Assembly: GCA_016223135.1 (NCBI GenBank)
Contig: JACRPQ010000010.1
Span: forward strand, 62,001 to 126,000
DNA: 64,000 bases
From: Chloroflexota bacterium
GTDB taxonomy: Bacteria > Chloroflexota > Anaerolineae > Anaerolineales > Villigracilaceae
Direction: 5' to 3'
The position numbers and the translations under genes are program-made. The notes under the pieces were generated by a model. It saw only the letters and a program-made list of their open reading frames with translations. It ran no database searches and had not been told where the DNA came from. This document shows positions 15,197 to 51,476 of the stretch, piece after piece; position 1 is the stretch's first letter; every line of letters starts with the position of its first letter.

Positions 15197-15324
15197 TTGT
15201 CCTTGTCCTTAACTTGTCCTTAAGTTGTCCTTAAGGACAAGTTGAAAAGTTGTCCCTTGTCCCCCCCTTTAAGGGGGACAAGGACAAGTCAACTAAAAAC
15301 AACCGAAAAAATGAAAAGTTGTCC
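15197..15324. other. Candidate replication origin (TTGTCC iterons and cruciforms)
   Basis: The hexamer TTGTCC occurs seven times directly (15197, 15203, 15214, 15225, 15250, 15257, 15319) and three times inverted (15235, 15276, 15282) in about 130 bp. Two larger inverted repeats are built from it: aacttgtccttaa with ttaaggacaagtt (15211-15243), and ttgtcccttgtccccc with gggggacaaggacaa (15250-15287). The region lies between the RepA-like ATPase and primase genes. Iteron arrays and cruciforms next to rep genes are typical of plasmid and satellite origins. An RNA attenuator for the primase gene is the main alternative. Confidence 0.7.
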
Positions 15325-15345
15325 TTTTGATGTTTGAGGTAAAAA

Positions 15346-16362
15346 ATGGACGCGATGACCATAAATCGGACGGTAGAACTTCTCCCCCTGGTAGGGCATC
15401 CGCTTCGCAAGGCGGGCGGCTACCACGTCGGAGCGTGTCCGTTTTGCGGCGGGGAAGACCGCTTCACGGTCAAGCACACGCCGAACGGCGACCGCTGGCA
15501 TTGCCGGCATTGCGGGGGCGGCAAATACCACACGGTCATAGACTTTGTGATGCGGCGCGATAATGCCGACTTCAAGGCGGCGGTGAAAATCCTGGGCGGC
15601 GAGATAACGGCGCCGGCTCGACCTGCGGCGCGTCCAAAGCCCCAGCCGCTGCGCCTGCCGTCTGCCGAATGGCAGGCGAAAGCATGGCGCGAAGTGGACG
15701 CGGCGATGACGCGGCTTTTCACGCCTCACGGCGCGGCGGCGCGGGCGTTCCTGCAAGCGCGCGGCTTGTCGTTTGCGATGTGGGAAACCTTCCTGCTGGG
15801 CTTTGGCATGGTGTACGACCATGTGGTAGAGCGTAAACGTCCTGCGATTGTCATCCCCTGGCGGGACGCCGAGGCGGGGAAAGAGACGATAACCGCTGTG
15901 AAGTATCGCTTTATTGACGCCGACCCAAACCCGAAGGCATTGCGGTATTCAAGCAAAAAGGGCAGTACGTTCGAGGTGCCGTTTGGCATGTTCGACATCC
16001 TGCCGGGTTTTCATCACACGCTTTTGCTTGTCGAAGGCGAGTTCAACGGCATAAGCGTTGCACAATGCCGACCCGCTGGCATGAGTGTGCTATCCTTCGG
16101 GAGCGAGGGCGGCGGACGGTTCGACGTACTGCGGGCAATTGCGGCGAAATACGAGCGCGTCTTTGTGTGGGCAGATGACGTTTGGGACAATCCCAAACAG
16201 GCGAAGCGCGCGGAAGAGTTGCGCTCGCTGGTCAAAGGCGGCGGGAGGGCGCTGCGAAGCGTTCGGCAGGACGGCGTGAAGTGGGACGCGAACCAACTGT
16301 TACAGGCGGGCGTCCTGGCTGAATTTGTGCGGCGCAAGTTCGGGGTCGAGGCGCAAGAATAA
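15346..16362 (+). CDS. Zinc-ribbon/Toprim DNA primase
   Basis: The 338-aa protein starts with a P4/T7-type primase zinc ribbon (CPFCGGEDRF, then WHCRHCGGGKYH, residues about 27-55). After a linker comes a Toprim domain (LLLVEGEFNGISVAQ with the catalytic glutamate, then VFVWADDVWDN with paired acidic residues). No helicase domain follows, so it is a stand-alone primase or primase-like factor working with the RepA-type ATPase just upstream. The ATG at 15346 is preceded by tgaggt. It is the last gene of the element before attR. Confidence 0.88.
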   Translation: MDAMTINRTVELLPLVGHPLRKAGGYHVGACPFCGGEDRFTVKHTPNGDRWHCRHCGGGKYHTVIDFVMRRDNADFKAAVKILGGEITAPARPAARPKPQPLRLPSAEWQAKAWREVDAAMTRLFTPHGAAARAFLQARGLSFAMWETFLLGFGMVYDHVVERKRPAIVIPWRDAEAGKETITAVKYRFIDADPNPKALRYSSKKGSTFEVPFGMFDILPGFHHTLLLVEGEFNGISVAQCRPAGMSVLSFGSEGGGRFDVLRAIAAKYERVFVWADDVWDNPKQAKRAEELRSLVKGGGRALRSVRQDGVKWDANQLLQAGVLAEFVRRKFGVEAQE

Positions 16363-34718: not shown

Positions 34719-35686
34719 AACCCACCCGCTTACTGTTTGTCCTTTTGCTCCTTCTCGTCAGCGGCTGTTCGCTTGCACCTGCGCCTGCCGCGCCGCGCCC
34801 GCCTCTGCGCATCGAATGGACCTACTGGCCCGGCGATTGGATTCTGCTGGTTGCCAAAGATCAGGGCATTTTCGAAAAGCACGGCGTCCAAGTGGAACCC
34901 GTCCTTTATGAGGTCTTTGACGACGTCTTCCCCGATATGGCTGCCGAAAAAATTGACGGCGGATTGTTCGTCATCGGTGATTTGGTGCCAATCTTCAACA
35001 ACGATAACCTGCACGCCGTTTTCCTCACAGATGTCTCCGATGGCGCCGACCAGGTGGTGGCTTCGCCCGACATTCAATCGCCGGCTGACCTGCGCGGTAA
35101 ACGCATCGGCGTTGCCCTGGGAACCTTCGGAGAACTGTTTGTGCGTCAAATGCTGATCGAAAATGGGATTCAACCCGCCGAGGTCACGTTTGTGGACATC
35201 AACGCCGAAGCCGTACCGGATGCGATCCCATCGCTGATAGACGCCGGACACACTTGGGAACCAGCCACTTCCCAAGCCGTTCAGAAGGGACAGCGCATCA
35301 TCTTCACCAGCGCCGAAACGCCCGGTCTCATCCCCGACCTGCTGGTGATGCGCACCTCGGTGCTGCGCGAACGACCGGACGACGTGCGCGCCTTCCTCGC
35401 CGCCTGGCTGGAAGCAGTGGAATTCACCAAAGCGCACCCCGAGGAAGCCATTGCCAGCATCGCCAAATTGAGCGGCATGGCGCCGGAGGAAATCTCCTTC
35501 GACGGCGTGCGCCTCTACACTCTTGAAGATAACCGTGCCGCCTTCGCTCAAAATCCAGGCAGCGATACGACTTCGATTTACTACACCACTCAGCTATACG
35601 TGCAGTTCTTCGTGGACAGTGGTCTATTGACTGTGCGTCCGGATATCAATCAAATGCTCGACCCATCCTTCCTGCCGCAGCCATAA
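34715..35686 (+). CDS. Orphan ABC-type substrate-binding lipoprotein (SsuA/ThiY-like)
   Basis: The 323-aa protein begins with a lipoprotein signal (LLFVLLLLLVSGCSL) and continues as a type-II periplasmic binding protein of the NMT1/SsuA/ThiY kind: WTYWPGDWILLVAKDQGIFE, then DLRGKRIGVALGTFGELFVR, then FLAAWLEAVEFTK. Such proteins bind sulfonates, pyrimidine precursors, nitrate or similar solutes. No ABC permease or ATPase gene is nearby. Instead the gene is translationally coupled to sensor 9 and lies among sensors, so it more likely delivers a ligand to a Cache sensor than to a transporter. The ligand cannot be read from sequence. Confidence 0.87.
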   Translation: MKPTRLLFVLLLLLVSGCSLAPAPAAPRPPLRIEWTYWPGDWILLVAKDQGIFEKHGVQVEPVLYEVFDDVFPDMAAEKIDGGLFVIGDLVPIFNNDNLHAVFLTDVSDGADQVVASPDIQSPADLRGKRIGVALGTFGELFVRQMLIENGIQPAEVTFVDINAEAVPDAIPSLIDAGHTWEPATSQAVQKGQRIIFTSAETPGLIPDLLVMRTSVLRERPDDVRAFLAAWLEAVEFTKAHPEEAIASIAKLSGMAPEEISFDGVRLYTLEDNRAAFAQNPGSDTTSIYYTTQLYVQFFVDSGLLTVRPDINQMLDPSFLPQP

Positions 35687-35800
35687 CCAGCGAATCAACC
35701 ATGGAGCATTTTCACATCTTTGTGTCGCCTGTACCGCAAAATTTCGTCTCCACGATGCGATACCGACAAAAATTCCAACGTCAAGGAGGATCCATCAAAC

Positions 35801-36583
35801 ATGCGTAAACGTACAGTCTTCCTCATTGTCCTGCTTGCGACCGTCCTGGCGCTCACTGCCTGCGGAGGCGGCGGAAAGCAGAAGACCATCACCTATTCCC
35901 GGGTGGTGGACCTCAGCCAGGTCATTGACACGAACATTCCCCTCTGGCCCGGCGACCCGCCGGTGGAATTCGAGAAAGTCGCCGACTTCGCCACCGACGG
36001 CTACTACCTGCGCCGCTTCTCCATCGGTGAACACAGCGGCACACACATGAACGCCTCCAACAGTTTTGTGGAAAACGGTCAGGGCATTGACGCCTATCCG
36101 CCCGAATCGCTGGTTGTCCCTGCGGTGGTGATTGACATTCGCGAGAAAGCCGCCGCCAACCCCGATTACGCCCTCACCGTGGATGATGTGCTGGCTTGGG
36201 AGAAGAAATACGGCAAAATTCCCACCGGCAGCCTGATCATCCTCTTCACCGGCTGGCAGGATAAATGGAACGACCCCGTTGCCTTCTTCAACGAGGACGC
36301 CGAGGGCGGGCTGCACTTCCCCGGCTTCGACGGTGAAACCACCCGTTTCCTCTTCGAGGAGCGGCAGGCGGCTGGCATGGGCATTGACACGCACGGCGTG
36401 GACCCCGGACAGGACGAGGCATACGCCACCAATACCCAAATCGCCGAACGAAACGCCATCGCTTTGGAGTGCCTGACCAATCTGGATCAACTTCCGCCCA
36501 CCGGCGCGACCCTCGTGTTGGGCATTCTGCGTCTGAAGGACGGCTCCGGCACGCCTCTTTCTGTCATGGCATTCATTCCCTAA
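35801..36583 (+). CDS. Cyclase-family (kynurenine-formamidase-like) lipoprotein
   Basis: A strong aaggagga precedes the ATG at 35801. The 260-aa product has a lipobox (LALTACGGG) and then a cyclase-family domain (VVDLSQVIDTNIPLWPGDPP and HSGTHMN, later GIDTHGVDPG). The family's metal site is normally H-x-G-T-H-x-D followed by a third histidine. Here the aspartate position is asparagine and the downstream histidine appears replaced (ASNSF). Either the chemistry is altered or the protein has become a binding protein. It is extracytoplasmic and embedded in the sensor operon, which supports a ligand-processing or ligand-binding role. Confidence 0.82.
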   Translation: MRKRTVFLIVLLATVLALTACGGGGKQKTITYSRVVDLSQVIDTNIPLWPGDPPVEFEKVADFATDGYYLRRFSIGEHSGTHMNASNSFVENGQGIDAYPPESLVVPAVVIDIREKAAANPDYALTVDDVLAWEKKYGKIPTGSLIILFTGWQDKWNDPVAFFNEDAEGGLHFPGFDGETTRFLFEERQAAGMGIDTHGVDPGQDEAYATNTQIAERNAIALECLTNLDQLPPTGATLVLGILRLKDGSGTPLSVMAFIP

Positions 36584-36638: not shown

Positions 36639-39422
36639 ATGGACTTCAACCGTAACGCCCGTTCCGTACTAATAACAGCCGCCATCGCCTCGCTGCTGGC
36701 GATGATCTATTACCTTGCGCTTTTCCTTCTGCTAAACGAAAGGCGCTATCTTGTCGTTAGTGGCGCCACGCTCCTGCTGCTGTCTGCTGCAGGCGGCGGG
36801 CTCCTGCTGTTGCGGGCGGGGCGACCTCGCCCGGCGATATGGATGCTGGTCTTGGGCGGTGAATTGACCTTCTTCGCCCCCCTTACCGTTTTTGCAAATG
36901 CCTCGTTCTTATTTTCGCCTGCGATTATCCTTCTCGTTCTCCTCATTGCCTTCTTGACGTTCTCACAACAGCAGGAACGCACCCGCGCTGCCTATTCAGC
37001 AGTCATCAGCGCTGTGGTCAATCTGCTCGCTGACCAACTCTGGTCCTTCGAACGCGCTCCGCTCCCCATTTATGTCATCGTGGGTATCGGCGGATTAATC
37101 GTGGTGGTAGCTCTCTTATACACAATCTTCATCTTCCGCGCCTTTCGTGACCTGACCCTGCGCGCCAAAACCACCACCCTGACTGCAACCCTTGTCATTT
37201 TGACCGTTGTCCTCGTCTCCAGCCTGCATATTTTTTACACCCGCAACACTCTATTGAGCAACGCGCAAAATTCACTGCACAATGCCGCAGAAAATCTCGC
37301 CTCTTTGCTTGATAATTCACTCATCGCCATTCTGAACTCGCTGCGCGCAGAGGCGCAAAACCCCGACTTTGCCGAGATGTTGACCGTCTCTCCACGAAAC
37401 AGCAAGTACGCCGATGTCCTCTCGGAGACAACCATCACCCTGCTTGCCCTCAAAAACAAGGACCCCATCTTTATTTCATCCTATGCACTGCTGGATGCAC
37501 AAGGAAACGTTTTGGTTTCAACAGAAGGAAATGAAATCGGGCAGGACGAGAGCCAGCGCGACTACTTTCAAAGACCGCGGCAGGATGGTTTGCCATTCTT
37601 CTCGGTCTGGTATTCGGAAAACAGCCTCTACTTTTCCACCCCTGTGCGCGACAAGAACAACGTCATCATCGGCGTGCTGCGCGCACGCTACAGCGCATCG
37701 CTCTTGCAGCAACTGATCGTTCAGACCAGCGGACTGGCGGGAGAAGGATCGTTTGCAGTCCTGCTCGACGAACATCATGTCATTCTGGCGCATGGACTTC
37801 ATGCGGAGACAATCTTCAAAACCACTGCGCCGCTAACCGCCGACCTGCTGACAAAGTGGCAAACAGAAGGGCGTTACCCGCCCGGCACAGCAGACACATT
37901 TACCGTCAACCTGCCTGAAGTGGAACAACACTTGAACGAGGCGGCACCCTCGCCTTTCTTTGAGATGATTGACATACAAGATACCCCTCAGCAGGCAGTG
38001 GCAGTTCCCATGAGCCAGCAGCCATGGATTGTCCTTTTTGCCCAGCCTCAGGAAGTGTTCCTGACGCCCATCAACCAACAAATCAACCGCAGTATCCTGC
38101 TTGCCCTTGCCGCCGCCGTCCTCTCCGCTTATCTGGCAATCGGCGTTTCACGTCTGCTCACCGATCCCATTCTCCGCCTCACGGAGACAGCACGCCAAAT
38201 CGCTGCTGGCGATCTGCTGAAACGAGCGCCAGTGACCTCCCAAGATGAGATCGGCATCCTGGCAGAAGCCTTCAACCAGATGACATCCCAATTGCACGAG
38301 CTAATCACAGGACTTGAACAGCGCGTCAGCGAACGAACCACGGATTTGAAGAACGCCGTCATCCTCAGCGAAAAACGCGCCGCCGACCTGCACGCCATCA
38401 GCGAAATCTCCCGCCTCATCTCCACCGAACAGCGGCTTGACACCCTCCTGCCCCTTGTTACCCACCTCATCAGCGAGCGTTTCGGCTTCTACCACGTCGG
38501 CATCTTTTTGGTGGATGAAGCGCGCCGCTTTGCCCATCTGCAAGCCGCCAACAGCGAAGGCGGACAAAAAATGCTTGCCCGCGGACATCGCCTCCAAATT
38601 GGGACCGGTTTGGTCGGCACCGCCGTCCAAACCGGCAAACCCCGCATCGCGCTGGACGTGGGGACTGATCCTGTTTACTTTAACAACCCCGACCTTCCCA
38701 ACACCCATTCCGAAATGGCGCTGCCGCTCAATTACCGCGGCGTCACCATCGGCGTGCTGGATGTGCAAAGCACCCAGCCAGGCGCCTTCACTGAAAGCGA
38801 CGCCCAAACCCTCAGCATCCTTGCTGATCAAGTTTCTATCGCCATCGAAAACGCCCGCCTCTTTGGTCAAACACAACAAGCGCGCGAAGAAGCCGAAACC
38901 CTATATACCCAACTCCAAAGCCGGGAATGGAGCGCTTTCCTCCGCAAGGAAACACGCATAGGCTACCAGCAAACTGTAAGCGGAGGAAAACGCCTCACCC
39001 AGCCGGTATTATCCGCAGAAATCCGCAAAGCCATCCAGGAAGGACAAGTGGTGGTAATGGACGGGGAAGAAACGCAGTCCTACCCAACTATGGCTGTGCC
39101 GGTCAAACTGCGCGGACAGACCATCGGCGTTCTCAATATCAAAGCTCCTCTCCCAAACCGCCGCTGGAGTCAGGACGAAGTCAACCTCGCCCAAGCCATT
39201 TCAGACCGCCTTGCCTTTGCGCTCGATAACGCCCGCCTTCTGTTGGAGGCGCAGCGCCGTGCCGCAAAGGAAACAAAAATCGGCGAAGTTTCTGCCAAAA
39301 TCGGCGCCTCCATCAACATGCGCAACGTTCTGCAAACTGCCGTTGAAGAATTGGGTCGCGCCTTGCCGGGCTCGGAGGTCATCATTCAATTCAGCGACAC
39401 AGACGGAGAAGGTATCGAATGA
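36639..39422 (+). CDS. Sensor 10: multi-span plus double-Cache, HAMP, GAF protein
   Basis: This is a 927-aa protein, the largest sensor. About six membrane spans fill the first 180 residues, then another span (about 185-205) starts a periplasmic Cache-like domain (PIFISSYALLDAQGNVLVST, RDYFQRPRQDGLPFFSVWYS, FSTPVRDKNNVIIGVLRAR) to about 480. A span, HAMP and a coiled coil follow, then the canonical GAF (FGFYHVGIFLVDEARRFAHL), late-GAF segment (MAVPVKLRGQTIGVLNIKA) and GAF-start tail (NMRNVLQTAVEELGRALPG). It looks like a fusion of two input types on the shared cytosolic module. No output domain. Its stop overlaps the next start (ATGA). Confidence 0.87.
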   Translation: MDFNRNARSVLITAAIASLLAMIYYLALFLLLNERRYLVVSGATLLLLSAAGGGLLLLRAGRPRPAIWMLVLGGELTFFAPLTVFANASFLFSPAIILLVLLIAFLTFSQQQERTRAAYSAVISAVVNLLADQLWSFERAPLPIYVIVGIGGLIVVVALLYTIFIFRAFRDLTLRAKTTTLTATLVILTVVLVSSLHIFYTRNTLLSNAQNSLHNAAENLASLLDNSLIAILNSLRAEAQNPDFAEMLTVSPRNSKYADVLSETTITLLALKNKDPIFISSYALLDAQGNVLVSTEGNEIGQDESQRDYFQRPRQDGLPFFSVWYSENSLYFSTPVRDKNNVIIGVLRARYSASLLQQLIVQTSGLAGEGSFAVLLDEHHVILAHGLHAETIFKTTAPLTADLLTKWQTEGRYPPGTADTFTVNLPEVEQHLNEAAPSPFFEMIDIQDTPQQAVAVPMSQQPWIVLFAQPQEVFLTPINQQINRSILLALAAAVLSAYLAIGVSRLLTDPILRLTETARQIAAGDLLKRAPVTSQDEIGILAEAFNQMTSQLHELITGLEQRVSERTTDLKNAVILSEKRAADLHAISEISRLISTEQRLDTLLPLVTHLISERFGFYHVGIFLVDEARRFAHLQAANSEGGQKMLARGHRLQIGTGLVGTAVQTGKPRIALDVGTDPVYFNNPDLPNTHSEMALPLNYRGVTIGVLDVQSTQPGAFTESDAQTLSILADQVSIAIENARLFGQTQQAREEAETLYTQLQSREWSAFLRKETRIGYQQTVSGGKRLTQPVLSAEIRKAIQEGQVVVMDGEETQSYPTMAVPVKLRGQTIGVLNIKAPLPNRRWSQDEVNLAQAISDRLAFALDNARLLLEAQRRAAKETKIGEVSAKIGASINMRNVLQTAVEELGRALPGSEVIIQFSDTDGEGIE

Positions 39423-41926
39423 CAGACGAAAAGAAAACACCCGCCTTTTTCCCGTCATTGCCCGCGGGGCGTGCATCCATCCGCAGAAGACTGCTTCGCG
39501 GCAGTCTTGCCATCGTTTTTCTGGCAATTGCCATCATGGGCGCGTTTGTATTCATCAGCACAGGACGAACCCATGCTACCCTCATCGCGCGCCTGGATGT
39601 CACCACCCGCAGCGAAGCGGAAAACCTGCTCGCCATCACAGCAGACCGGCAGGCGGAAACCTTATCGAATTTTTTCAACAACTTACAGGCAAACATTCTC
39701 TCCCTGCAAAAATACGATCAAAATCTGCTTTTAAACCGGCAGACATTTGGGTCGGGCGCGTATTGGGACGCCGCCGCTTCGCTTGCCCGAAACGACAAAG
39801 GCAGTTGGGATAACCCCAACACCGAAAGCGGCTCCGTATTCATCCCCGCCGCAGCCGAACTTACAGAATCCATGGTGGCGGAATTAAACGCCATCCGCCA
39901 CATGGACTTGCTGGCTCCCTCCATTCTCCAAGCCAACCCGGATATCATTGCCGTCTATTTCGGCGGCTCCAGCGGTTACACCCTTTACTACCCCAACATA
40001 GACCTTGCTGCCATTGTGCCGCCCGATTTCAATGTCACGAGCCGCCCATGGTACACAGTGGCAGGACCAGAAGCCAACCCCAGCCGCGGCGCGGTCTGGT
40101 CTGACCCTTATTTGGATGCGGCGCTCAATGGCATCATCATCACCAACAGCGCACCCGTCTATGACTCGGCAGACAGGCTGGCAGGCGTTGTGGCGCAGGA
40201 TATTCAACTGACAAAAATCTCCCAACTTGTCGGGAACATCCATGTAGGCGAAAGCGGTTACGCCTTCCTCATTGACCGCCAGGGGCGGTTGATTGCCATG
40301 CCCGAAGCGGGCTACACAGACCTGAAAATCACCCCCGACCTGCTGCCTTTGGGAGGCAAACTGACCGCCACCAACCTTGGAGCGACCGTTGCAACGCTGC
40401 AAACCGTCCTCTCCGAAATGACCGCCGGTGACAGCGGGCTTACGGAAATCAACTTGAATGGCGTGAACCGCTTTGTCATCTATCGCCCGGTGCGGGGCGT
40501 GGAATTCAGTCTGGCAATCATCGTGCCGGTGGATGAAATGCTCGCCAAAGCGCTGGAAGCGCGGCGGCAGCTCGAGCGCGAAAATCTCAACGCGCTGGGC
40601 GTCAGCATCTTCGTTGTTCTCGGCATTTTTGGTCTGACTCTGCTTGTCACCCGCAATTTCAGCAACAACCTGATCGCGCCGCTGCTTGCCCTCACTCGCA
40701 CAGCCGAAGAAATGGCAAAAGGCAACCTGGAAGCAAGAGCCTCTGTCGCCGAACAAGACGAGATTGGCACGCTTGCCACTACATTGAACTCCATGGCGGC
40801 GGAACTCAAAGCATCCATTGACTCATTGGAAATGCGCGTCGCCGAACGCACGAAAGAAGTCGAACAACGCGGACAGGAACTCCAAACCGCAAATGCGCAC
40901 CTTCAGCGCCGCGCCGCACAATTCGAGGCAATGGCGCAGGTCGCCCAATCCATCGCTTCCATCCGCGACTTGAAGGAACTTCTGCCGCGCATCGCGTCGG
41001 TCATCAGCGAAAAATACGGCTTCTATCACGTGGGCGTCTTCCTGCTCGATGAAAACAACGAATATGCGGTTCTCACCGCCGCCAATAGTGAAGGCGGGCA
41101 GCGCATGCTGGCAAGGCAGCACCGTCTCAAAGTGGGCGAACAAGGCATTGTAGGAAGCGTCACCGCCAGCGGACAGCCGCGCATCGCCCTCGACGTGGGA
41201 GCGGATGCCGTCTTCTTCAACAACCCCGACCTCCCCGACACCCACTCCGAAATGGCGCTGCCCCTCTTCAGCGGCGGCAAAGTCATCGGCGCGCTGGATG
41301 TGCAAAGCACCGAAGCCGGCGCCTTCACTGAAGAAGATATACAAACGCTCAGCCTGCTTGCCGAGCAGGTCAGCCTTGCCATCGAAAACGCCCGCCTGTT
41401 CGAAGCCTCCAACCGCACCTTGAATGAATTGCAAACACTCATGCGCCAATCCACGCGCGAGGCATGGAAGCGCCTGCCCCACAGCCAAAAACTACTCGGT
41501 TATCGCTACAACGCCATGGGCTCCTCCCCTCTCACGGAGCCGATCCAGTTAACGGCGCTGTCAGAGAAGAAAAAGACCGAGGCGGCAGAAACAGCCTCCA
41601 TCGTCGTCCCGATCGAACTGCGCGGAGAGGTCATCGGCAGGCTGGTTGTCCAATCCCCCTCCGCATCACAATGGGGAACCGACGAAAAAGACCTCATCCA
41701 GGCAGTGGCAGAACGTGTGGCGCTCTCTGCAGAAAACGCGCGCCTGTTCGAAGAGACCACCCGCCGCGCCGAACGCGAGCGGCTGGTTTCCGAAATCACC
41801 GGCAAGATACGAAGCCATAACGACCCGCAAGCCATGATCGAAACCGCCCTGCAGGAACTGCGCCAGGCGCTTGGCGCCACCCGCGTGGAGATCCTGCCCA
41901 AGGCTTCGGACGGAAAGGACAAGTGA
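39419..41926 (+). CDS. Sensor 11: double-Cache, HAMP, GAF protein
   Basis: This is an 835-aa protein with the same plan as sensor 8: TM1 near 28-48, a double-Cache region to about 390 (DIIAVYFGGSSGYTLYYPN, GESGYAFLIDRQGRLIAMP, FVIYRPVRGVEFSLAIIVPV), TM2, HAMP, a coiled coil, a canonical GAF (YGFYHVGVFLLDENNEYAVL), the late-GAF segment (IVVPIELRGEVIGRLVVQS) and the GAF-start tail (DPQAMIETALQELRQALGA). No output domain. It ends one base before the ParA gene, so sensing, ParA and kinase genes are in one transcript. Confidence 0.88.
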   Translation: MTDEKKTPAFFPSLPAGRASIRRRLLRGSLAIVFLAIAIMGAFVFISTGRTHATLIARLDVTTRSEAENLLAITADRQAETLSNFFNNLQANILSLQKYDQNLLLNRQTFGSGAYWDAAASLARNDKGSWDNPNTESGSVFIPAAAELTESMVAELNAIRHMDLLAPSILQANPDIIAVYFGGSSGYTLYYPNIDLAAIVPPDFNVTSRPWYTVAGPEANPSRGAVWSDPYLDAALNGIIITNSAPVYDSADRLAGVVAQDIQLTKISQLVGNIHVGESGYAFLIDRQGRLIAMPEAGYTDLKITPDLLPLGGKLTATNLGATVATLQTVLSEMTAGDSGLTEINLNGVNRFVIYRPVRGVEFSLAIIVPVDEMLAKALEARRQLERENLNALGVSIFVVLGIFGLTLLVTRNFSNNLIAPLLALTRTAEEMAKGNLEARASVAEQDEIGTLATTLNSMAAELKASIDSLEMRVAERTKEVEQRGQELQTANAHLQRRAAQFEAMAQVAQSIASIRDLKELLPRIASVISEKYGFYHVGVFLLDENNEYAVLTAANSEGGQRMLARQHRLKVGEQGIVGSVTASGQPRIALDVGADAVFFNNPDLPDTHSEMALPLFSGGKVIGALDVQSTEAGAFTEEDIQTLSLLAEQVSLAIENARLFEASNRTLNELQTLMRQSTREAWKRLPHSQKLLGYRYNAMGSSPLTEPIQLTALSEKKKTEAAETASIVVPIELRGEVIGRLVVQSPSASQWGTDEKDLIQAVAERVALSAENARLFEETTRRAERERLVSEITGKIRSHNDPQAMIETALQELRQALGATRVEILPKASDGKDK

Positions 41927-41927: not shown

Positions 41928-42713
41928 ATGGCATACGCAATTGCAATGTCGAACGAAAAAGGCGGCGTCGCCAAAACCACCTCCACGCTTTCGCTGGGCG
42001 CCGCGCTTGCCGAATTGAACTACCGCGTCCTGCTGGTGGACCTCGACCCCCAAGCGAACCTTTCGCTTGCCCTTGGCTTGGAAACCGATGAGGCGAGCAT
42101 CACCTCGGCAAATGTGTTGATTGAAGGCGTTGCCCTCAAAACCGCCATCCGCACCACAGAGATTCGCAATCTTTCCCTCGTGCCGTCCAATTTTAAAATC
42201 GAGAATGCGGAACAATTCCTGCCCATGCGCACCCATTATCTGACCACGCTTCGCAGCGCCCTGGAGGCGGATGCGCTTCCCTATGATTACATTCTGTTCG
42301 ATTGCCCGCCTGCCCTCGGAGCAATCACTCTCAATGCGCTTGCCGCCGCCAACCTGCTCATCATTCCCACCCAGGCAGAATACTTCTCCGCCTACGCGCT
42401 GAGAAACATGATGGGCACCATCCGCCGCATCCGCCAGGAAGTCAACCCGGGTCTTGCCTACCGCATTCTGGTCACCCTCCTCGACCGCCGCAACCGCACC
42501 CATCGCAACATCTTCGAGCAGCTGCAAGCCACTTTTGGTCAGGGTGTTTTTACCACTGTCATCGAAATTGACACCAAACTCAGGGAAAGCCCGATTGCCG
42601 GCGTGCCTATCGTCCACTACAAGCCCACCAGCCGCGGCGCACAACAATACCGCGTCCTTGCCCAGGAGTTGATTGAATATGCCAAAGAAGAAACCGCTCG
42701 CCAGGCGGCTTGA
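41928..42713 (+). CDS. ParA/MinD-family ATPase (orphan, positioning type)
   Basis: The ATG at 41928 gives 261 residues. The deviant Walker A motif is NEKGGVAKTTSTLSLG with the signature lysine, followed by VLLVDLDPQANLS and the ILFDCPPALG switch. These ATPases bind DNA as ATP dimers and move cargo over the nucleoid. No parB or parS is seen. Instead the gene overlaps the hybrid kinase gene by 35 bp, and the kinase starts with a ParB-like basic peptide. This suggests that ParA positions the kinase complex, as orphan ParAs do for chemosensory clusters and carboxysomes. The cargo assignment is inference; the ATPase assignment is secure. Confidence 0.92.
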   Translation: MAYAIAMSNEKGGVAKTTSTLSLGAALAELNYRVLLVDLDPQANLSLALGLETDEASITSANVLIEGVALKTAIRTTEIRNLSLVPSNFKIENAEQFLPMRTHYLTTLRSALEADALPYDYILFDCPPALGAITLNALAAANLLIIPTQAEYFSAYALRNMMGTIRRIRQEVNPGLAYRILVTLLDRRNRTHRNIFEQLQATFGQGVFTTVIEIDTKLRESPIAGVPIVHYKPTSRGAQQYRVLAQELIEYAKEETARQAA

Positions 42714-45700
42714 CCGACTATTCGAAGACATCAAGCACGAGGAACCGAGCGTCGAACCTCAGGCGGTCGCTCCTGCCGGCGCGCCTCAACAGCCTGCGGC
42801 AGCCCCTCCTGAGACGACTACGCCCGCAGTAAAGCGCGTCCCTGCCGTCCGCTCAATCGAAGCGGCACCTCGCACGGAAACCGCCCTGGCGCTGGACTTC
42901 AAACTAAGCGCAGACACTTGGGCAACCCTGCAAGTCCTCGACGAGACAAATCAACGCGTCTGGACGGAAGAGGACCAACTCCTCGCCCGCCAAGTCACCG
43001 ACCAACTGGCGCTGGCGCTCGAAAATGCCCGCCTCTTCCAGGAAATTCAGCGCTCCGAAGCGGAGCTGCGCGCCCTCTTTGCCTCCATGAACGATGTCAT
43101 CATCGTGTACGACAAGGACGGCAACTACGTCAGAATCGCGCCGACCAATCCTTCGCTGCTCGTCCGCCCGCCCGACGAAATGGTCGGAAAAAACATCCGC
43201 GACGTGCTGCCCCCCGAACTGTATCAGCCCTTCATGAAAACCATCCAGGGCGCGCTGAACAGCAATGAAATTATGCGCATCGAGTACCCCTTGGAAATCA
43301 AGGGCAGCCGCTTTTGGTTCGACGCCAACGTCTCCCGCTTGAACGAAACCCAAGTCTTCTGGGTGGCGCGCGACATCACCGACCGTAAAACCAATGAATT
43401 CGTTCAGACTGCCATCGCCCACATCACCGAAAGCGCGTTGACAGCGAAATCTGTCGAAGAATTATTCCGTGCTGTTCACGAATCCCTTCAGCCTATTATG
43501 CCTGCCAAGAACTTCTTCGCAGCGCTGTACGATCCCGATACACATCTGATTACCTTTCCCTATCATGCCGACGAATATGATGACGACTGGGCGCCGCGCA
43601 AACTGGGGCGCGGACTTACCTCCTACGTCATCCGTTCCGCCAAACCCTTGCGAGTTACCCCCGAAATCTTTGCCGACCTTGAAGCCAGCGGCGAAGTCGT
43701 CGCTGAGGGCGCTGCCAGCGTGGACTGGATTGGGGTCCCGCTGAAAAGCGGCGGCGCGGTACGAGGCGTCATGGCGGTTCAAACCTACGACCCTGTCATC
43801 CGTCTCGACGAAAAGCATACAGAAATTCTCGAAGCGATTGCCGCCCAGACAGCCGCCGCCCTCGAACGCCTGCAAGCCAGAGAAGCGCTCGAACAACGCA
43901 ACGCCTACCTTGCCGCCTCCGCCGAAATTGGACGCCTCGTCACATCCACCCTCGACCTCAACACGATCTTCACGCAGACCGTCAACCTGATCAGCGACCG
44001 TCTGGGCTTTTACTTCGCCGCCATCTATCAGATGGATGAAGACGGCTACCACGTCATCCTGCGTGAAGCGACAGGCGGCGCCGGCGAAAAAATGAAATCA
44101 CAAAAATACAAGATTGCTGTCGGCTCGTCAACTGCCGTAGGCAATGCGGCGGCAAACGGCGAAATCGTCATCATCAACAACGCCGCCGCCGACCGCCTCT
44201 ACCAGCCCAACCCGCTCCTGCTCGACACTCAATCCGAAGCCGCCATCCCGCTCAAAGTCAGCGGCAAGACACTCGGCGTGATCAACATCCAATCCACCCA
44301 GCCGCACGCCTTCACGCCAGATGTTCTCTCCGTCCTTCAATCCTTGGCAGACCAGGTTGCCGTTGCCATCAACAACGCCGCCCTTTACCTCGAATCGCAG
44401 GAACTCATCAAAAACCTTCAGGAAGTGGACAAACTCAAGAGCCAGTTCCTTGCCAACATGAGCCATGAACTGCGCACGCCGCTGAACTCCATCATTGGCT
44501 TCTCGCGCGTTATCCTCAAAGGCATTGACGGTCCCATCACCGACATGCAGCAACAGGACCTGACCGCCATCTACAACTCGGGTCAGCATCTGCTCGGCTT
44601 GATCAACGACATCCTCGACCTGGCGCGCATCGAGGCTGGCAAGATGGAACTCAACTTCGAGGAAGTCCACCTCGCTGAGATGATCCACAGCGTTTTCTCC
44701 ACCGCCAAAGGGCTTGTCAAGGAAAAACCCATTCAGCTCATCGAAAAAGTCCCGCCGGAAATGCCCACCATCCGCGGCGATACGATGCGCGTGCGCCAGA
44801 TACTGCTCAACTTAATCTCCAACGCCGCCAAATTCACCGATGAAGGCTACATCACCGTCGAAACATCTGTTCAGAAAGCGCCCAGTGGAAAATTCGAAGC
44901 GCTCATCAAAGTGACCGATACCGGTCCCGGCATCTCCCCTGAAGGACAGGAAAAACTCTTCAAGGCGTTCTCCCAGGTGGATGGTTCCGCCACCCGCAAA
45001 ACGGGCGGCTCCGGCTTGGGTCTCTCCATCTGCGCCAACCTCGTCCAACTGCATGGCGGACGCATCGGCGTCGAGAGCGAGGAAGGCAAAGGCTCCACCT
45101 TCTGGTTCACCATGCCGCTCTTCCGCCAGCCTGCCGACGAAATCCCGTCGGGCAGGAAAATCGTTCTCGCCATTGACGACGACCCGCAGGTCATCAGCCT
45201 CTACGAGCGCTACCTCTCCCCGCAGGGCTATCATGTCGTCGCGCTCACCGAACCTGCCAGAGCAAAAGAACGGGTGAAGGAACTCAAACCATTTGCCGTG
45301 ACTCTCGACATCATGATGCCCAACGTGGATGGTTGGTCGGTGCTGACCGACCTCAAATCGGATCCCGCCACGAGGGACATTCCCGTCATCATCTGTTCCA
45401 TCGTCGAACAGACCGACAAGGGCTTCAACCTTGGCGCGGCAGACTACCTCGTCAAGCCCATCCTCGAAGAAGACCTCGTCCACGCGCTGGATCGCCTCAA
45501 CAAAAGCGGGAAGATCCGCCGCGTGCTGGTCATTGACGACGATCCCAATGACCTGCGCCTCATCGAAAAGATTTTGACCGAACACGGCAAATATCAAGCC
45601 ATTCTCGCCGAAGGCGGACGCCGCGGCTGGGAAATTCTCAATACCAACCCACCCGATGCCGTCATCCTCGATATTTTCATGCCGGAAATGGACGGCTTCA

Positions 45701-45894
45701 TGATCCTCGAAAAATTGCGGGAGGAGCCGGCGCTGCGCGATATACCGGTCCTGGTCGTCAGCGGCGGCGGACTGACCAGCGAACAGCATAAACAACTCGC
45801 CGAGTACGGCAAGAGGCTCATCGCCAAAGGCTCGCTGAACGAAAATGATTTGCTTGCCAGCATCGAAAGTGTGCTCAAACGCATCGGCGGCTGA
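42679..45894 (+). CDS. Hub hybrid histidine kinase with ParB-like start and two receivers
   Basis: The ATG at 42679 gives 1071 residues; an in-frame TTG six bases upstream is possible. Residues 1-18 (MPKKKPLARRLDRLFEDI) resemble the ParA-stimulating start of ParB. After a proline/alanine linker, residues 65-125 are only the last part of a GAF (WATLQVLDETNQRVWTEEDQ, LALALENARLF). PAS (about 126-240) and two GAFs (about 250-575) follow. HisKA has H596 (MSHELRTPLN), and HATPase has NLISNAAKF, DTGPGI and GGSGLGLS. Receivers follow with D877 and D998. It is soluble and is the only kinase in the 31-kb cluster, so it is the likely output for the eleven sensors. Confidence 0.9.
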   Translation: MPKKKPLARRLDRLFEDIKHEEPSVEPQAVAPAGAPQQPAAAPPETTTPAVKRVPAVRSIEAAPRTETALALDFKLSADTWATLQVLDETNQRVWTEEDQLLARQVTDQLALALENARLFQEIQRSEAELRALFASMNDVIIVYDKDGNYVRIAPTNPSLLVRPPDEMVGKNIRDVLPPELYQPFMKTIQGALNSNEIMRIEYPLEIKGSRFWFDANVSRLNETQVFWVARDITDRKTNEFVQTAIAHITESALTAKSVEELFRAVHESLQPIMPAKNFFAALYDPDTHLITFPYHADEYDDDWAPRKLGRGLTSYVIRSAKPLRVTPEIFADLEASGEVVAEGAASVDWIGVPLKSGGAVRGVMAVQTYDPVIRLDEKHTEILEAIAAQTAAALERLQAREALEQRNAYLAASAEIGRLVTSTLDLNTIFTQTVNLISDRLGFYFAAIYQMDEDGYHVILREATGGAGEKMKSQKYKIAVGSSTAVGNAAANGEIVIINNAAADRLYQPNPLLLDTQSEAAIPLKVSGKTLGVINIQSTQPHAFTPDVLSVLQSLADQVAVAINNAALYLESQELIKNLQEVDKLKSQFLANMSHELRTPLNSIIGFSRVILKGIDGPITDMQQQDLTAIYNSGQHLLGLINDILDLARIEAGKMELNFEEVHLAEMIHSVFSTAKGLVKEKPIQLIEKVPPEMPTIRGDTMRVRQILLNLISNAAKFTDEGYITVETSVQKAPSGKFEALIKVTDTGPGISPEGQEKLFKAFSQVDGSATRKTGGSGLGLSICANLVQLHGGRIGVESEEGKGSTFWFTMPLFRQPADEIPSGRKIVLAIDDDPQVISLYERYLSPQGYHVVALTEPARAKERVKELKPFAVTLDIMMPNVDGWSVLTDLKSDPATRDIPVIICSIVEQTDKGFNLGAADYLVKPILEEDLVHALDRLNKSGKIRRVLVIDDDPNDLRLIEKILTEHGKYQAILAEGGRRGWEILNTNPPDAVILDIFMPEMDGFMILEKLREEPALRDIPVLVVSGGGLTSEQHKQLAEYGKRLIAKGSLNENDLLASIESVLKRIGG

Positions 45895-45969: not shown

Positions 45970-47646
45970 ATGCCATTTGTGATTCGTTGCCTCGATTGCG
46001 GATATGCCGCTCCTTTCACGCCCAGTTCCATGCAATGCCCCAATTGCTCCAGCCAATGGCGTGAAGCGGAATATGACCTAGCCGAGGTCGCAAAGACATT
46101 TCCCTCACAACTCAGAAACCGGGAATTCGACCTGTGGCGCTACAAGGAACTTCTGCCCATCCATAACCCCAATCCCAGCCTGCGGCTTGGCGAAGGCGGC
46201 ACGCCGCTCATCAAAGCCGTCAACCTGGGAATGATGCTGGGGTTGAACAACCTGTACATCAAGGACGAACGCCAGGGACCAACTTCCTCCTTCAAAGACA
46301 GGCAAGCAGCGCTGACCATTGCCGCGCTCAAAGAGGCGGGCATCACCGAAATGGTCGCCGCCTCCACCGGCAATGTCGCCATTTCGCTTTCGGCGTATGC
46401 GGCTCGGGCGGGGATCAAACTTTGGGCGTTCGTCACCAGCCTCGTTCCGGGGGTCAAGATGCGCGAAATCGCCTTGTATGGGAGTCAGGTGGTAAAAATC
46501 ACCGGCTCCTATGACGAGGCAAAAATCATGGCGGCAGAGTTTGCACGCCAGCGCGGTTTGTATCAGGATATGGGCGCACGCACCGTCACAGCCGTGGAGG
46601 CGATGAAAACGCTTGCCTTCGAAATTGCCGAACAACTCACCCTCCAAAACGGACCGCCGCCAGACTCTACACCAGACCGTCCGAAATGGCGCACGCCCGA
46701 CTGGTATGTTCAATCCATCAGCGGAGGGCTGGGTCCGCTGGGTGTGTACAAGGGCTTCCGCGAATTGAAGGCGCTGGGGTTGATAGACCGCATCCCTGCC
46801 ATTGCGCCCATTCAGGTGGACGGTTGTGCGCCGATGGTGGAAAGTTGGCGCAAAGGACTCGAAAAAGCCGAGCCGGTACGCTCGCCCAAGACCCGCATCG
46901 AGACATTGGCAACCGGCGACCCCGGCCGCACTTACGTCATGCTGCGCAAACAGGTCAACGAAACCGGCGGCGTTTTTGAAAGTGTTTCAGACGAAGAGTC
47001 GTTCCGCGCCATGCATGTGCTGGCAAAAATGGAGGGCATTTCCGCCGAGCCCGCCTCGGCAACCGCCTTTGCCGGTCTCTTCAAACTGGTACGGTCCGGT
47101 GTCATCAAGCCAGATGATGTGGTTGTGGTCAATTGCACCGGTCACACTATGCCCGCTGAGCAGTATCTGTTTGGTGAAGGCTGGACGCGCGACATTGACC
47201 TGCGCCATAAACAGGCGGAAGCCGAGACACCGCAGGAGGGGCTGCTCTCCGCTCTCAATAATGTGACGCCGAACCGCTTCTCCCGTGTGGTAGTGGCGGA
47301 TGACACGGTTGAGGCGCGCCGCCTTATCCGCCGCATTTTGCAATCGCAGGGCGATTTCGAAATCATCGAAGCCGTCAATGGACGTGAAGCCATCGAACTG
47401 GTGAACCGCGAACAGCCCGACCTGCTCATTCTCGACCTGATGATGCCGGAAATGGACGGCTTTGCCGTCTTGGACGTTTTGCGCAGTCAGCCGCAGACCG
47501 TCAACATTCCGGTCATTGTTGCCACTGCCAAGGAACTGACCGTGGACGAGAAAAGCCGCCTGCAGGGACGCATCCAGTCCCTGATGCTCAAGGGTGACTT
47601 CCTGAACGATGAATTTCTCGAAGAAGTGCGCACACTGCTTAAATAA
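45970..47646 (+). CDS. Threonine-synthase-like PLP enzyme fused to a receiver domain
   Basis: This is a 558-aa protein. An N-terminal zinc ribbon (C7, C10, C23, C26) leads into a fold-type-II PLP domain of the threonine synthase family: GGTPLIKA, the PLP lysine K109 in TSSFKDRQA, STGNVAIS, SGGLGPLGVYKGF, and VNCTGHTMP at the end. Residues about 438-556 are a complete receiver: ADDTVEARR acidic pair, D489 (ILDLMMPEMDG), threonine in VATA, and lysine in LMLKGDF. The usual reaction converts O-phosphohomoserine to threonine; the true substrate is unknown. The receiver implies control by phosphorylation, most simply from the hub kinase 75 bp upstream. Confidence 0.9.
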   Translation: MPFVIRCLDCGYAAPFTPSSMQCPNCSSQWREAEYDLAEVAKTFPSQLRNREFDLWRYKELLPIHNPNPSLRLGEGGTPLIKAVNLGMMLGLNNLYIKDERQGPTSSFKDRQAALTIAALKEAGITEMVAASTGNVAISLSAYAARAGIKLWAFVTSLVPGVKMREIALYGSQVVKITGSYDEAKIMAAEFARQRGLYQDMGARTVTAVEAMKTLAFEIAEQLTLQNGPPPDSTPDRPKWRTPDWYVQSISGGLGPLGVYKGFRELKALGLIDRIPAIAPIQVDGCAPMVESWRKGLEKAEPVRSPKTRIETLATGDPGRTYVMLRKQVNETGGVFESVSDEESFRAMHVLAKMEGISAEPASATAFAGLFKLVRSGVIKPDDVVVVNCTGHTMPAEQYLFGEGWTRDIDLRHKQAEAETPQEGLLSALNNVTPNRFSRVVVADDTVEARRLIRRILQSQGDFEIIEAVNGREAIELVNREQPDLLILDLMMPEMDGFAVLDVLRSQPQTVNIPVIVATAKELTVDEKSRLQGRIQSLMLKGDFLNDEFLEEVRTLLK

Positions 47647-47869: not shown

Positions 47870-48829
47870 TTGAAAGCCGGTGCTGAGTTGTCGAAGAAAA
47901 ACCGTTCCCAGGGTATCTCCGCTGCGCTGATTTCCGCCGCTCTCATCGGCATGGCGCCAGTGTTTGGCAAAGCCGCAATGGGAGAAGGGCAGTTTTCGCC
48001 CTATGCGGTGGTAGCGCTTCGCACAAGCATGGCAACAGCGCTTCTTGTGCTGATTATGCTCGTCTTCAAGCGGCAGTATTTGTATATCTACCCCGCCGGG
48101 CTATATGGATGTCTACTGGCTGGCGCGCTCAACGGCATCGGCTCCATTTTCTACTATGTCGGGCTCAGCAAACTGAACGCCAGCGTGGCTCAAATGCTGT
48201 ATGCCCTTTATCCCCTCTTCGTGGCGCTTTGGCTGCAACTGGATGGACAGCCGCCCTCCAAGTTGACCCTCCTTAGAATTATCATTGCAGGCGGTTCGGC
48301 ATTCCTGCTTACCAAAGTTGAATCGGGGAACATCAATTTGACCGGCGTGATCTTCATGTTGATCTCCGCCGCCCTCTATGCCCTGCATCTGCCCATCAAT
48401 CAACGGGTGCTGTACGACGTTCCCGCCCCCACCGTGACCGTGTACACCTTGCTGGCGATGAGCGCTGTTGTCGTACCTGCCTATTTCATTGCCAGCCCAG
48501 CGCCGCCCGCTGACCCGTCCTGGCTGCCGGTGCTGGGATTGACGGCTGTCACCTTTGGATCGCGGCTCATGTTGTTTCTGGGCGTCAAGAACATCGGCGG
48601 GATGCAGACCGCCCTGCTCGGTCTCGCCGAGTTGCTGGTGGCTATCACGTTCAGCCACCTGCTGCTCGGTGAAACGCTCACCCGCTGGCAGTGGATGGGC
48701 ACAACTGGACTGGGCGCCAGTCTGCTGTTGGTTTGGTTTGAGAAGCCAATCTCCCACCCGCTTCGCGCCAAGGGACTTTTATCATGGCTCCAGCCGCCCG
48801 ATTTCCCATCCGACTTTTACAGGCATTAG
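47870..48829 (+). CDS. EamA/DMT-family transporter
   Basis: The 319-aa protein has ten hydrophobic segments arranged as two five-helix EamA repeats. It begins ALISAALIGMAPVFGKAAM and ends TRWQWMGTTGLGASLLLVWF, with the typical LLLGETLT before the last helices. Members export or import amino acids, nucleotide sugars or other metabolites; the substrate is unknown. No ATG fits; the start is TTG at 47870 or TTG at 47888. It follows the PLP-receiver gene after 223 bp, so it might export that enzyme's product, but co-transcription is not shown. Confidence 0.85.
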   Translation: MKAGAELSKKNRSQGISAALISAALIGMAPVFGKAAMGEGQFSPYAVVALRTSMATALLVLIMLVFKRQYLYIYPAGLYGCLLAGALNGIGSIFYYVGLSKLNASVAQMLYALYPLFVALWLQLDGQPPSKLTLLRIIIAGGSAFLLTKVESGNINLTGVIFMLISAALYALHLPINQRVLYDVPAPTVTVYTLLAMSAVVVPAYFIASPAPPADPSWLPVLGLTAVTFGSRLMLFLGVKNIGGMQTALLGLAELLVAITFSHLLLGETLTRWQWMGTTGLGASLLLVWFEKPISHPLRAKGLLSWLQPPDFPSDFYRH

Positions 48830-49143: not shown

Positions 49144-49893
49144 TTAGCGCCTCGAGGATAAATTTTCGGATTCATACAGATACCCTGTTCCCCTCACGCT
49201 GACAATTGCCCGCGCCAGGGATGGAAACGCCTCCAATTTGTGCCGCAGGCGGCTCACTAATGGACGCAGAATTTCAGGCGCCTCACGCTGAGAGGTATCG
49301 TATCCTTGCACGAGCAGAACCAGTTCACGGTGGGTATAAACGCGCCCCGGATTTTCGATGAGGACGCGTAAAAGGCGTCCTTCAGCAGGCGTCAGGTGAA
49401 TTACCTGGTCCTTTTTCTCAATCAGGCGGCGAGAGAGGTCAATACGGGTACCATCCTGAAGTGTAAATTCAAGCAGGGACTCATCCACCTCCGCCGAGAC
49501 GGAACCGCCTTTTGCTTTCAAGCGGGCATCCCGCCGCGCCAGTCCCTTTTTGACGCTGTTGATGACCTGCGAGGGGGCTACCGGCTTGAGCAGGTAATCA
49601 TGTACACGCAGGCGCAGCGCTTGAATGGCGGACTCCGTTGTACCATAGGCGGTGAGCAGGATGATTTCCGTTTCCGGCGAAATTTGGTTGACCACCTGAA
49701 CGACTTCCAACCCGTCCATGCCGGGCATACGCAGGTCAACTACCATCAAGTCAATGGGATGCGTGCGGACGTATTCGACCGCCGCCTGTCCGTTCGGCAC
49801 GGCGCTGACCGCATATCCCTCAAGGCGCAGGATGTCTGAAAGCGATTGCCGGGCAACAGGCTCATCGTCAACGACAAGGATGTTGGGTTTCAT
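49144..49893 (-). CDS. Response regulator with winged-helix DNA-binding domain
   Basis: The 249-aa protein has a receiver with D10 and the phospho-acceptor D53 (VVDLRMPGMDGL), T in LLTAYG, and K in LLKPVAP. A C-terminal OmpR/PhoB-type winged helix follows (LTPAEGRLLRVLIENPGRVY, RPLVSRLRHKLEA, VRGTGYLYE). The receiver itself is closer to the NtrC style (GTTESAIQAL). It is the last gene of a minus-strand operon, with an ATGA overlap to the receiver-kinase. It is probably the transcriptional output of that cascade. Target genes are unknown. Confidence 0.92.
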   Translation of the reverse strand: MKPNILVVDDEPVARQSLSDILRLEGYAVSAVPNGQAAVEYVRTHPIDLMVVDLRMPGMDGLEVVQVVNQISPETEIILLTAYGTTESAIQALRLRVHDYLLKPVAPSQVINSVKKGLARRDARLKAKGGSVSAEVDESLLEFTLQDGTRIDLSRRLIEKKDQVIHLTPAEGRLLRVLIENPGRVYTHRELVLLVQGYDTSQREAPEILRPLVSRLRHKLEAFPSLARAIVSVRGTGYLYESENLSSRR

Positions 49894-51476
49894 GATACAT
49901 CTCCCTTTGGCAGAAATAAGCGGAAACAGGCGCCATCGCCGTTTCCTTTTACAATGTCCAGTGTGCCGCCGTGCGCGGTGACAATATTGTAACTCACTGT
50001 CAACCCCAAGCCTGTGCCGCCCTCTTTGGTGCTGAAGAACGGTTCGAAAATATTGTTGCGCAGCCCCTCAGGGATGCCGGGACCGGTATCTTCGAACTGA
50101 ATTTCCACGCCGTTTTCCAACGCTTTGGCGCGGACCATGAGAGCGCCTCCGCCGGGCATCACATCGAAGGCATTGAGAATCAGGTTGATGAAAATCTGCT
50201 GAATCTGACTGCTCACCGCAAATACCGGCGGCAGAGATTCGGGCAGGTCAGTGATGACTTCGATGTGCCGCTGGCTCAACTGTTGGGAGGTGAGGCTGAG
50301 CACATGCTTCAGCAGTTCCAGCACATCCACCTTTTCCATTTTGACAGAGCCGGGGCGATAGAAATCCAGCATACGGTGCATGGTTTTCATCAGGCGTTCG
50401 AGTTCGGAGCGCGCCAGTTCAAAATATTCCTTGCGTTTTTCGGCGGGCAGGTCTTCGCGCCCGGCAAGGTGCAGGCAGTTCTGCACGGATTGGAGAGGGT
50501 TGTTGACTTCGTGGGCAATGGAAGCCGTCAACCTGCCAGCCGCCGCCATCTTTTCGGAACGCAGCAGCGCCTGTTGGGATTCCTCCACTTTACGCACATA
50601 GGCTCGCAGGTCGGCGTAGAGGCGGGCGTTTTCCAGCGCCACCAATGACTGACGGGCAAGGATGTGGAACAGCTCCAGGTCGGTGCCGCGGAAGGTGGCA
50701 GCGCCGGCGTCTCTGGCGGCAAACAGGACGGCGCTCCAGCCTGAGCGTGCAATCGGGATGAGGATGGCGGCGCCCAGTTTGAGGTCCGCAAGAAGCGCCT
50801 GCGCATCTTTCTCCCCCGGTCCTGTTGCGTTGACGAGGATCGGTTTCCCATCTGACGCCACCCGCCGCAGGAGGTCTGCGGCAAAACTGTTTCTTTCCAA
50901 CGGCAGGACGCTGCCGCGCTTGGCGATCAACGCAAAATCATCCGCCTCCGCCTGGTAAAACGCCGCATTCGGACATTGCAGATGCTCACAGATGGTATCC
51001 ACAATGAGGGGGTGCAGTTTGTCCATGTCGGTTTCGGAGAAAAGCCGCTCGGTGGCGTCAAAGAGCGGACGAAGTGCCTGGGCGCGGGCGGTTTCGCGTT
51101 TGCGGCGGTTGTCGGCGAGCGCTTGCGCCACAGCAGCCACCAGTTCATCCCCTTTTTCAAACGGTTTGAGCAAAAGCCCATCCACTCCCTGACGCAGGGC
51201 GCGAATGGCGGTTTCGACGGTGCCAAAGCCGGTCATCACCAGCACGGCAATATCGGGCTGGGCGCGTTTGGCGCGGTAGATGACATCGAAACCATCCACT
51301 TCGGGCATGCGAATGTCCACCAAGAGCAGGTCGAAGCGGCGCTGACCGAGGATTTCGACGGCGGCGCGCGGGTTGGTTTCAGATTGGACTTCGTAGCCGG
51401 CGCGTGTCAGAACACGGTGACACAACAAGGCAATGCCGGGTTCATCGTCAACGACAAGAACGGATGCAGATTCCAT
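49890..51476 (-). CDS. Receiver-GAF histidine kinase
   Basis: This 528-aa soluble protein has a receiver first (D54 in LLVDIRMPEVDG; K in LLLKPFEKG). A GAF follows (CPNAAFYQAEADDFALIAKR to SLVALENARLY), then HisKA with H322 (SIAHEVNNPLQS) and HATPase (NLILNAFDVMPGGG, DTGPGIPEG, GGTGLGLTVSYNIV). A receiver placed before the kinase core means its autophosphorylation can be gated by another kinase, most simply the multi-GAF kinase encoded 9 bp upstream. The downstream response regulator gene overlaps its stop. Together they encode a linear phosphorelay. Confidence 0.92.
   Translation of the reverse strand: MESASVLVVDDEPGIALLCHRVLTRAGYEVQSETNPRAAVEILGQRRFDLLLVDIRMPEVDGFDVIYRAKRAQPDIAVLVMTGFGTVETAIRALRQGVDGLLLKPFEKGDELVAAVAQALADNRRKRETARAQALRPLFDATERLFSETDMDKLHPLIVDTICEHLQCPNAAFYQAEADDFALIAKRGSVLPLERNSFAADLLRRVASDGKPILVNATGPGEKDAQALLADLKLGAAILIPIARSGWSAVLFAARDAGAATFRGTDLELFHILARQSLVALENARLYADLRAYVRKVEESQQALLRSEKMAAAGRLTASIAHEVNNPLQSVQNCLHLAGREDLPAEKRKEYFELARSELERLMKTMHRMLDFYRPGSVKMEKVDVLELLKHVLSLTSQQLSQRHIEVITDLPESLPPVFAVSSQIQQIFINLILNAFDVMPGGGALMVRAKALENGVEIQFEDTGPGIPEGLRNNIFEPFFSTKEGGTGLGLTVSYNIVTAHGGTLDIVKGNGDGACFRLFLPKGDVS

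Follow-up and report, generated by a model that had tools for sequence, protein, structure and literature searches.

Receiver domains usually drive transcription, cyclic-nucleotide turnover or protein contacts, and response regulators with enzymatic output domains, such as CheB and PleD, are well established. Receivers attached to metabolic enzymes are mentioned in general terms in section 14 of PMC5847659, and the archaeal receiver–enzyme fusions treated there are called narrow, being typically confined to one family or genus. For PLP enzymes there is a precedent in the receiver-derived wing that is fused to AAT-fold ornithine/lysine/arginine decarboxylases (PMC8503589).

Here we describe a gene in a 64,000-nucleotide stretch of a Chloroflexota genome (hereafter the window, meaning the whole stretch analysed) that joins a zinc ribbon, a fold-II PLP domain (PALP) and a receiver (REC) in one polypeptide. 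It has in common with the known enzymatic-output response regulators a phospho-complete receiver, an adjacent histidine kinase and an enzymatic partner domain, but here the output is a zinc-ribbon fold-II PLP enzyme and the receiver is C-terminal. With the decarboxylases of PMC8503589 it shares a receiver-derived domain on a PLP-dependent amino-acid enzyme. Those enzymes are of fold I and carry an N-terminal wing, whereas the fusion is of fold II (PALP) with a C-terminal receiver, and according to Pfam the window protein has no decarboxylase domain. It also differs from the archaeal fusions of PMC5847659 in that its type spans many families and reaches beyond one order. Among the matches listed in a search of the open-access literature at title and abstract level, a fold-II PLP or threonine-synthase-like enzyme joined to a receiver was undescribed.

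Architecture, conservation and distribution of the fusion

The fusion gene (45970..47646, + strand) has an ATG start and no internal stops and encodes 558 amino acids. At the N terminus lies a zinc ribbon (45988..46047, +) of the form C7-x2-C10 ... C23-x2-C26, whose cysteines, the putative zinc ligands, are invariant in 80 of 80 aligned fusions. The PALP domain (PF00291; residues 72–390; 46183..47139, +) was recognised by Pfam with 213 bits against a cut-off of 35. It contains the Schiff-base lysine K109 (46294..46296, +) in the sequence SFKDRQA, which aligns with K61 of Thermus ThrS. A linker (residues 402–436; 47173..47277, +), which in the structure model has a pLDDT below 50 over residues 402–424 and then a short predicted helix, leads to the receiver (residues 437–558; 47278..47643, +), delimited from Pfam and the alignment. 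Response_reg scored 67.2 bits over residues 440–536, against a gathering cut-off of 30.2. The phosphorylation set of this receiver is complete: the acidic pair D444/D445, the phospho-acceptor aspartate D489 (47434..47436, +; invariant in 80/80), T519 and K541. The original prediction had placed the zinc ribbon, the PLP lysine and the full receiver in one unbroken frame, 75 bp downstream of a double-receiver hybrid kinase gene (42673..45894, +). Residues, gap and domains were all re-read and proved correct.

In separate Chloroflexota records we read 88 distinct fused proteins, counting that of the window. Eighty of these were aligned; the omitted ones were L011, L015, L017, L020, L022, L024, L025 and L160, of which seven are mostly close to retained rows and L160 (L160:5675-8110, −) is longer, its PLP domain being followed by two receivers. 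Invariant throughout the alignment are the zinc-ribbon cysteines, K109, the segment S132-T133-G134-N135, D445, D489 and K541. A residue table, drawn up without L005, which is a truncated copy of the window gene, and without L052, which lies at a contig end, gave K109 in 88 of 88 fusions. Position 444 is Asp or Glu and position 519 is Thr or Ser in all 53 receivers counted. For five same-genus orthologues, dN was 0.018–0.116 against a dS of 0.45–2.09 over the PALP and REC parts, and both halves are under purifying selection. One relative, L039, is 91% identical. Because 88 distinct fused proteins occur in separate records and dN lies far below dS, the fusion is neither an artefact nor a product of chance; an assembly error at the PLP–receiver joint, which had been raised together with the original prediction, is excluded.

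A search with the PALP part at E ≤ 1e-60 gave matches in 52 of 61 genomes (its own and 60 relatives), namely in 36 of the 37 in the family (own included) and in 16 of the 24 in the remaining order. Seventy-three of the 77 matches in these 61 genomes, at E ≤ 1e-119, were in open frames of at least 547 amino acids. One further match was a partial alignment within a 537-amino-acid frame, and the last three were shorter enzymes with 36–37% identity, in frames of 426–454 amino acids. When 400 genomes were drawn evenly from the phylum, 41 were matched (four candidates per genome were scored, so the counts are possibly low), and all 55 matches at E ≤ 1e-70 were in frames of at least 549 amino acids. 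A scan of a genome collection, of a kind that picks up close relatives only, gave at least 17 full- or near-full-length matches, those among the best 80; all came from records titled Chloroflexi, Anaerolineae, Anaerolineales, Anaerolinea, Anaerolineaceae, Villigracilaceae or Thermoflexales. The architecture was not found on mobile replicons, as no place in the 53 plasmid and 12 phage records with any match covered 80% of the query. Thus, the fusion spans many families of one order and extends beyond that order. The supposition that such a receiver–enzyme fusion would be a rare oddity did not survive these counts, neither those among the relatives nor those in the phylum sample.

A PALP tree was constructed from 30 of the 88 fusions, 11 unfused paralogues and three solved enzymes; it is unrooted, and the program warns that long branches meet. 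In this tree the fused PALP domains form one side of a 100/100 branch. Judged from their sequences, the fusions are of one origin and fall into two main groups, which we separated by PALP score, group A having at least 436 bits and group B less. Group A comprises 72 of the 88 fusions and includes the window type. The remaining 16 make up group B (45–48% identical over full length, 15 aligned), which includes proteins from a distinct family, f46, with genomes of 6–7 Mb (two genomes read).

The ancestry of the receiver was approached with a tree of 81 receivers, a chosen subset aligned over 113 columns, which contains some very long branches and drew a long-branch warning. Twenty-five fusion receivers clustered with 13 last receivers of two-receiver hybrid kinases (100/99), and REC1 and the free receivers fell apart from this cluster. 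Inside it no single branch separates the fusion receivers from the rest, and the details of the tree are weak. The REC2 of the window kinase (45466..45879, +) clusters with the PALP-REC receivers and is the best receiver match of the fusion in its own genome. In REC2 the phospho-acceptor Asp is kept in 28 of 28 cases and the Lys in 27 of 28. The simplest reading would be a duplication between fusion and kinase receivers, with REC2 as a competing phosphate acceptor. Between linker and receiver, G424, L425, A428 and L429 are kept in at least 90% of the 80-fusion alignment, which suggests a signalling or docking helix.

The enzyme half and its substrate loop

Structural comparison returned threonine synthases in 11 of the top 12 rows (Z 37.5–44.9; 44.9 for 2c2b and 41.5 for 6nmx), and the other row, the second, was the cysteate synthase CapA2 (PDB 9k3c, Z 42.5). 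The fusion shares a threonine-synthase-like fold with CapA2; it differs in that the 9k3c chain has 430–435 residues and its entry lines name no receiver. Cysteate synthase was dropped as a candidate despite this second row, as the model TIGR03844 gave 104.2 bits, far from its cut-off of 324.9. The threonine synthases 2zsj, 1uim, 2d1f, 6cgq and 1e5x have the fold, the Schiff-base lysine and the STGN segment in common with the fusion. The N-terminal zinc ribbon is also present in the unfused PRK08197-type paralogues that we aligned. Threonine synthase models account for six of the best seven NCBIfam models for the window protein, and the seventh is the cysteate synthase model. Nevertheless, the window protein stayed under the curated cut-offs, with 148.6 bits in TIGR00260 (cut-off 167.1) and 251.5 bits in PRK08197 (cut-off 303). 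One fused relative, L167, was just over the TIGR00260 cut-off with 168.9 bits.

Besides carrying the attached receiver, the fusion differs from threonine synthase in its substrate loop. The motif NSxNxxRxEGQKT, whose NS...R residues we take to bind the substrate phosphate, is present in 2zsj, 1uim, 2d1f, 6cgq and 1e5x and in the C16 paralogue of the genome. The window fusion instead has DMGARTVTAVEAMKT at this place (residues 200–214; 46567..46611, +), as found by residue comparison. In all 88 fusions Gly stands in place of the first Asn of the motif and one of S, A, C, T, P and G in place of the Arg, and the Ser following the first Asn is replaced in 86 of 88. The PLP loop GNAGN likewise reads SGG[LM]GP in the fusions, with single exceptions. 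Unfused paralogues with a zinc ribbon retain the loop Arg in nine of ten cases. The unfused C12 paralogue of the genome has Thr instead of this Arg, yet it passes TIGR00260 (176.0 bits), and the Arg alone is therefore an unsafe criterion. Moreover, the loop has a basic residue at other places. All 72 group-A proteins carry R or K at position 204 (window protein numbering), and 21 of 88 fusions (15 of 16 in group B) carry R at position 209. The anion site therefore looks moved, not simply lost, which softens the notion that an anion-binding arginine has just disappeared; the remodelled loop may recognise a phosphate.

With 301.5 bits in TIGR00260, the C16 paralogue is clearly a ThrC, and it lies beside thrB (223.8 bits) elsewhere in the genome. 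The original assignment to the threonine synthase family stands for the fold, the Schiff-base lysine and the STGN segment. The synthase label itself is doubtful because the loop is remodelled, the cut-offs are missed and a separate thrC adjoins thrB. These residues, scores and genes lend no support to the idea that the enzyme is a threonine synthase with O-phosphohomoserine as its substrate. Given a threonine-synthase-family catalytic core with a rebuilt loop, the enzyme probably uses another amino-acid-like, possibly anionic, substrate and not O-phosphohomoserine.

Adjacent kinases and gene neighbourhood

The likely partner of the fusion is the hybrid histidine kinase directly upstream, with the domain order PAS-GAF-GAF-HisKA-HATPase-REC1-REC2 and H598 in the sequence HELRTP. 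On the other side of the fusion, an EamA-family transporter recognised by Pfam (47870..48829, +) is a candidate product exporter. Beyond it lie two convergent genes, encoding an OmpR-type response regulator (49144-49893, −) and a REC-GAF-HK kinase (49890-51476, −). A gene for a ParA/MinD-type ATPase (AAA_31; 41934..42713, +) stands before the kinase gene; this ATPase possibly positions the signalling complex in the cell.

We compared 55 neighbourhood rows, 39 from group A and 16 from group B. Genes were called by a longest-ORF rule, which can hide genes and missed the ParA gene in the window itself, and some of the rows may represent one species twice. A histidine kinase gene lay directly upstream of the fusion in 49 of the 55 rows, and we infer that the adjoining kinase is the cognate one. 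The ParA/MinD-type gene was at position −2 in 21 of 55. Group A is characterised by hybrid kinases: among the 33 adjacent kinases, 28 have two receivers, three have one and two have none; no kinase was found at −1 in six of the 39 rows, L155 and L169 among them. In this group EamA was at +1 in 29 of 39 rows and at +2 in two, the contig ending first in two others, and a convergent receiver protein was at +2 in 16 of 39.

The kinases of group B were without a receiver in 16 of 16 rows, and a free receiver followed the fusion at +1 in 11 of 16. Since such a kinase has no receiver of its own, its natural acceptor is the fusion or else the free receiver that follows. The receiver-less kinase points to direct transfer to the fusion and would be the strongest reason to think that the enzyme is controlled directly. 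In seven group-B rows an unfused threonine-synthase-like gene lies at most three genes downstream, with an eighth in L146; the unfused protein of L144 scored 579.9 bits in PRK08197, above the cut-off. Deviating arrangements were also seen. L155:4321-13001 and L169:4134-9172 are without a kinase, and both have genes for an Mrp/NBP35-type ATPase, a peptide deformylase and a ZIP transporter, to which L155 adds genes of the CGGC, ARMT1-like and molybdopterin oxidase types. No partner was recognised for L164 or L165, and in L055 the kinase lies behind the fusion.

A hybrid kinase might need an HPt protein to reach the fusion. The genome of the window gave only one HPt match, C3:741680, away from the fusion locus, although a divergent HPt could be missed. 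Therefore, the kinase is either tuned by its REC1 and REC2 or assisted by an HPt in trans.

The surroundings of the fusion are rich in sensory genes. The region 16413-47646 (+) holds 19 genes that run in one direction, with no gap above 75 bp, and looks like one very large sensory operon. Besides the fusion and the hybrid kinase it encodes a ParA-type ATPase, two free receivers and eleven GAF proteins without a Pfam kinase domain, several of which carry HAMP, dCache_1 or MASE11. In the middle of the run (34715-36583, +) are genes for an SsuA/NMT1-like periplasmic binding protein and a PF04199 cyclase with weak arylformamidase similarity. Just before the run (14151-16362, +), one gene encodes an AAA_25 ATPase and another a protein with a primase-type zinc ribbon; both are possible mobile-element remnants.

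Two of the sensors without a Pfam kinase domain have the order dCache_1-HAMP-GAF according to Pfam (36639..39422, +, and 39419..41926, +). In the dCache_1 domain of the latter, the pattern R-x-W-Y...Y...D (R209, W211, Y212, Y231 and D261) was picked out by eye. It resembles the amino-acid-sensor motif, the PctA residues being taken from PMC10104139 and PMC11245519. None of the window's ten other GAF sensors shows the pattern, and similar ones occur in four other loci (L039, L043, L044 and L173). We regard this dCache as a lead towards an amino-acid sensor, and only as a lead.

Proposed mechanism and competing readings

We consider it rather probable, at somewhat better than even chances, that the protein is a response regulator with a PLP-enzyme output of altered specificity, switched by a kinase, and that its product is exported in group A. 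The adjoining kinase, mostly hybrid in group A and receiver-less in group B, would phosphorylate D489. The ensuing change would be passed through the flexible linker and the conserved GLxxAL helix to the zinc-ribbon/fold-II PLP domain, whose activity would be altered, activation being the likelier direction. The adjacent EamA transporter of group A would probably carry the product, or a compound related to it, out of the cell. Control of the predicted enzyme by a phosphorelay, as originally proposed, is well supported by the anatomy of the protein, the invariant phospho-site residues and the conserved neighbouring kinase. Several points count against the proposed mechanism: the linker has a pLDDT below 50 over residues 402–424, six group-A rows have no kinase at −1, a hybrid kinase might depend on an HPt, the basic residue of the loop may serve phosphate recognition, and both L167 and the C12 paralogue pass TIGR00260.

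The last of these points would be expected if the protein were a genuine threonine synthase with a flux governed by phosphorylation. The same reading would accommodate the dominance of threonine synthases among the structural rows (11 of 12) and the NCBIfam models (six of seven), as well as the basic residue that is still found in the substrate loop. It is hard to reconcile with a window protein that stays under both the TIGR00260 and the PRK08197 cut-offs, with a loop motif that is changed in 88 of 88 fusions, and with a C16 paralogue that adjoins thrB, and we think it unlikely. Alternatively, the PALP domain could be a sensor: on binding PLP or an amino acid it would tune the receiver, which would then serve as a phosphate sink or a kinase docking unit. 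The fusion receivers cluster with the REC2 domains of hybrid kinases and both may therefore compete for phosphate; in group B the true output could be the free receiver at +1. For binding alone, neither the catalytic lysine nor the STGN segment would be needed, and both are invariant; we judge a sensor role of this kind to be improbable. A receiver that takes up no phosphate, for which the receiver-derived domains on the PLP enzymes of PMC8503589 would offer a precedent, is very improbable, given that D445, D489 and K541 are invariant in 80 fusions, that position 519 is Thr or Ser in 53 of 53 receivers, and that a kinase gene adjoins in 49 of 55 rows. A more speculative proposal starts from the switched enzyme. 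A phosphorylation-gated PLP synthase would make an amino-acid-derived extracellular signal, with a kinase fed by the membrane dCache and GAF sensors, export by EamA and read-back by dCache; we give this extended scheme a small chance of being right.

The proposed kinase-switched PLP enzyme is open to direct experiment: the fusion is a single polypeptide and the adjoining group-B kinase is without a receiver, and phosphotransfer and allostery can therefore be tested in vitro. What surprises is the kind of enzyme and how broadly the fusion is conserved. If the signal-synthase proposal were true, the two-component system would end in the making of a small-molecule message and not in transcription. 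A phospho-complete receiver on an amino-acid-type PLP enzyme, present in most sampled genomes of the order, would wire a signal directly to metabolic flux.
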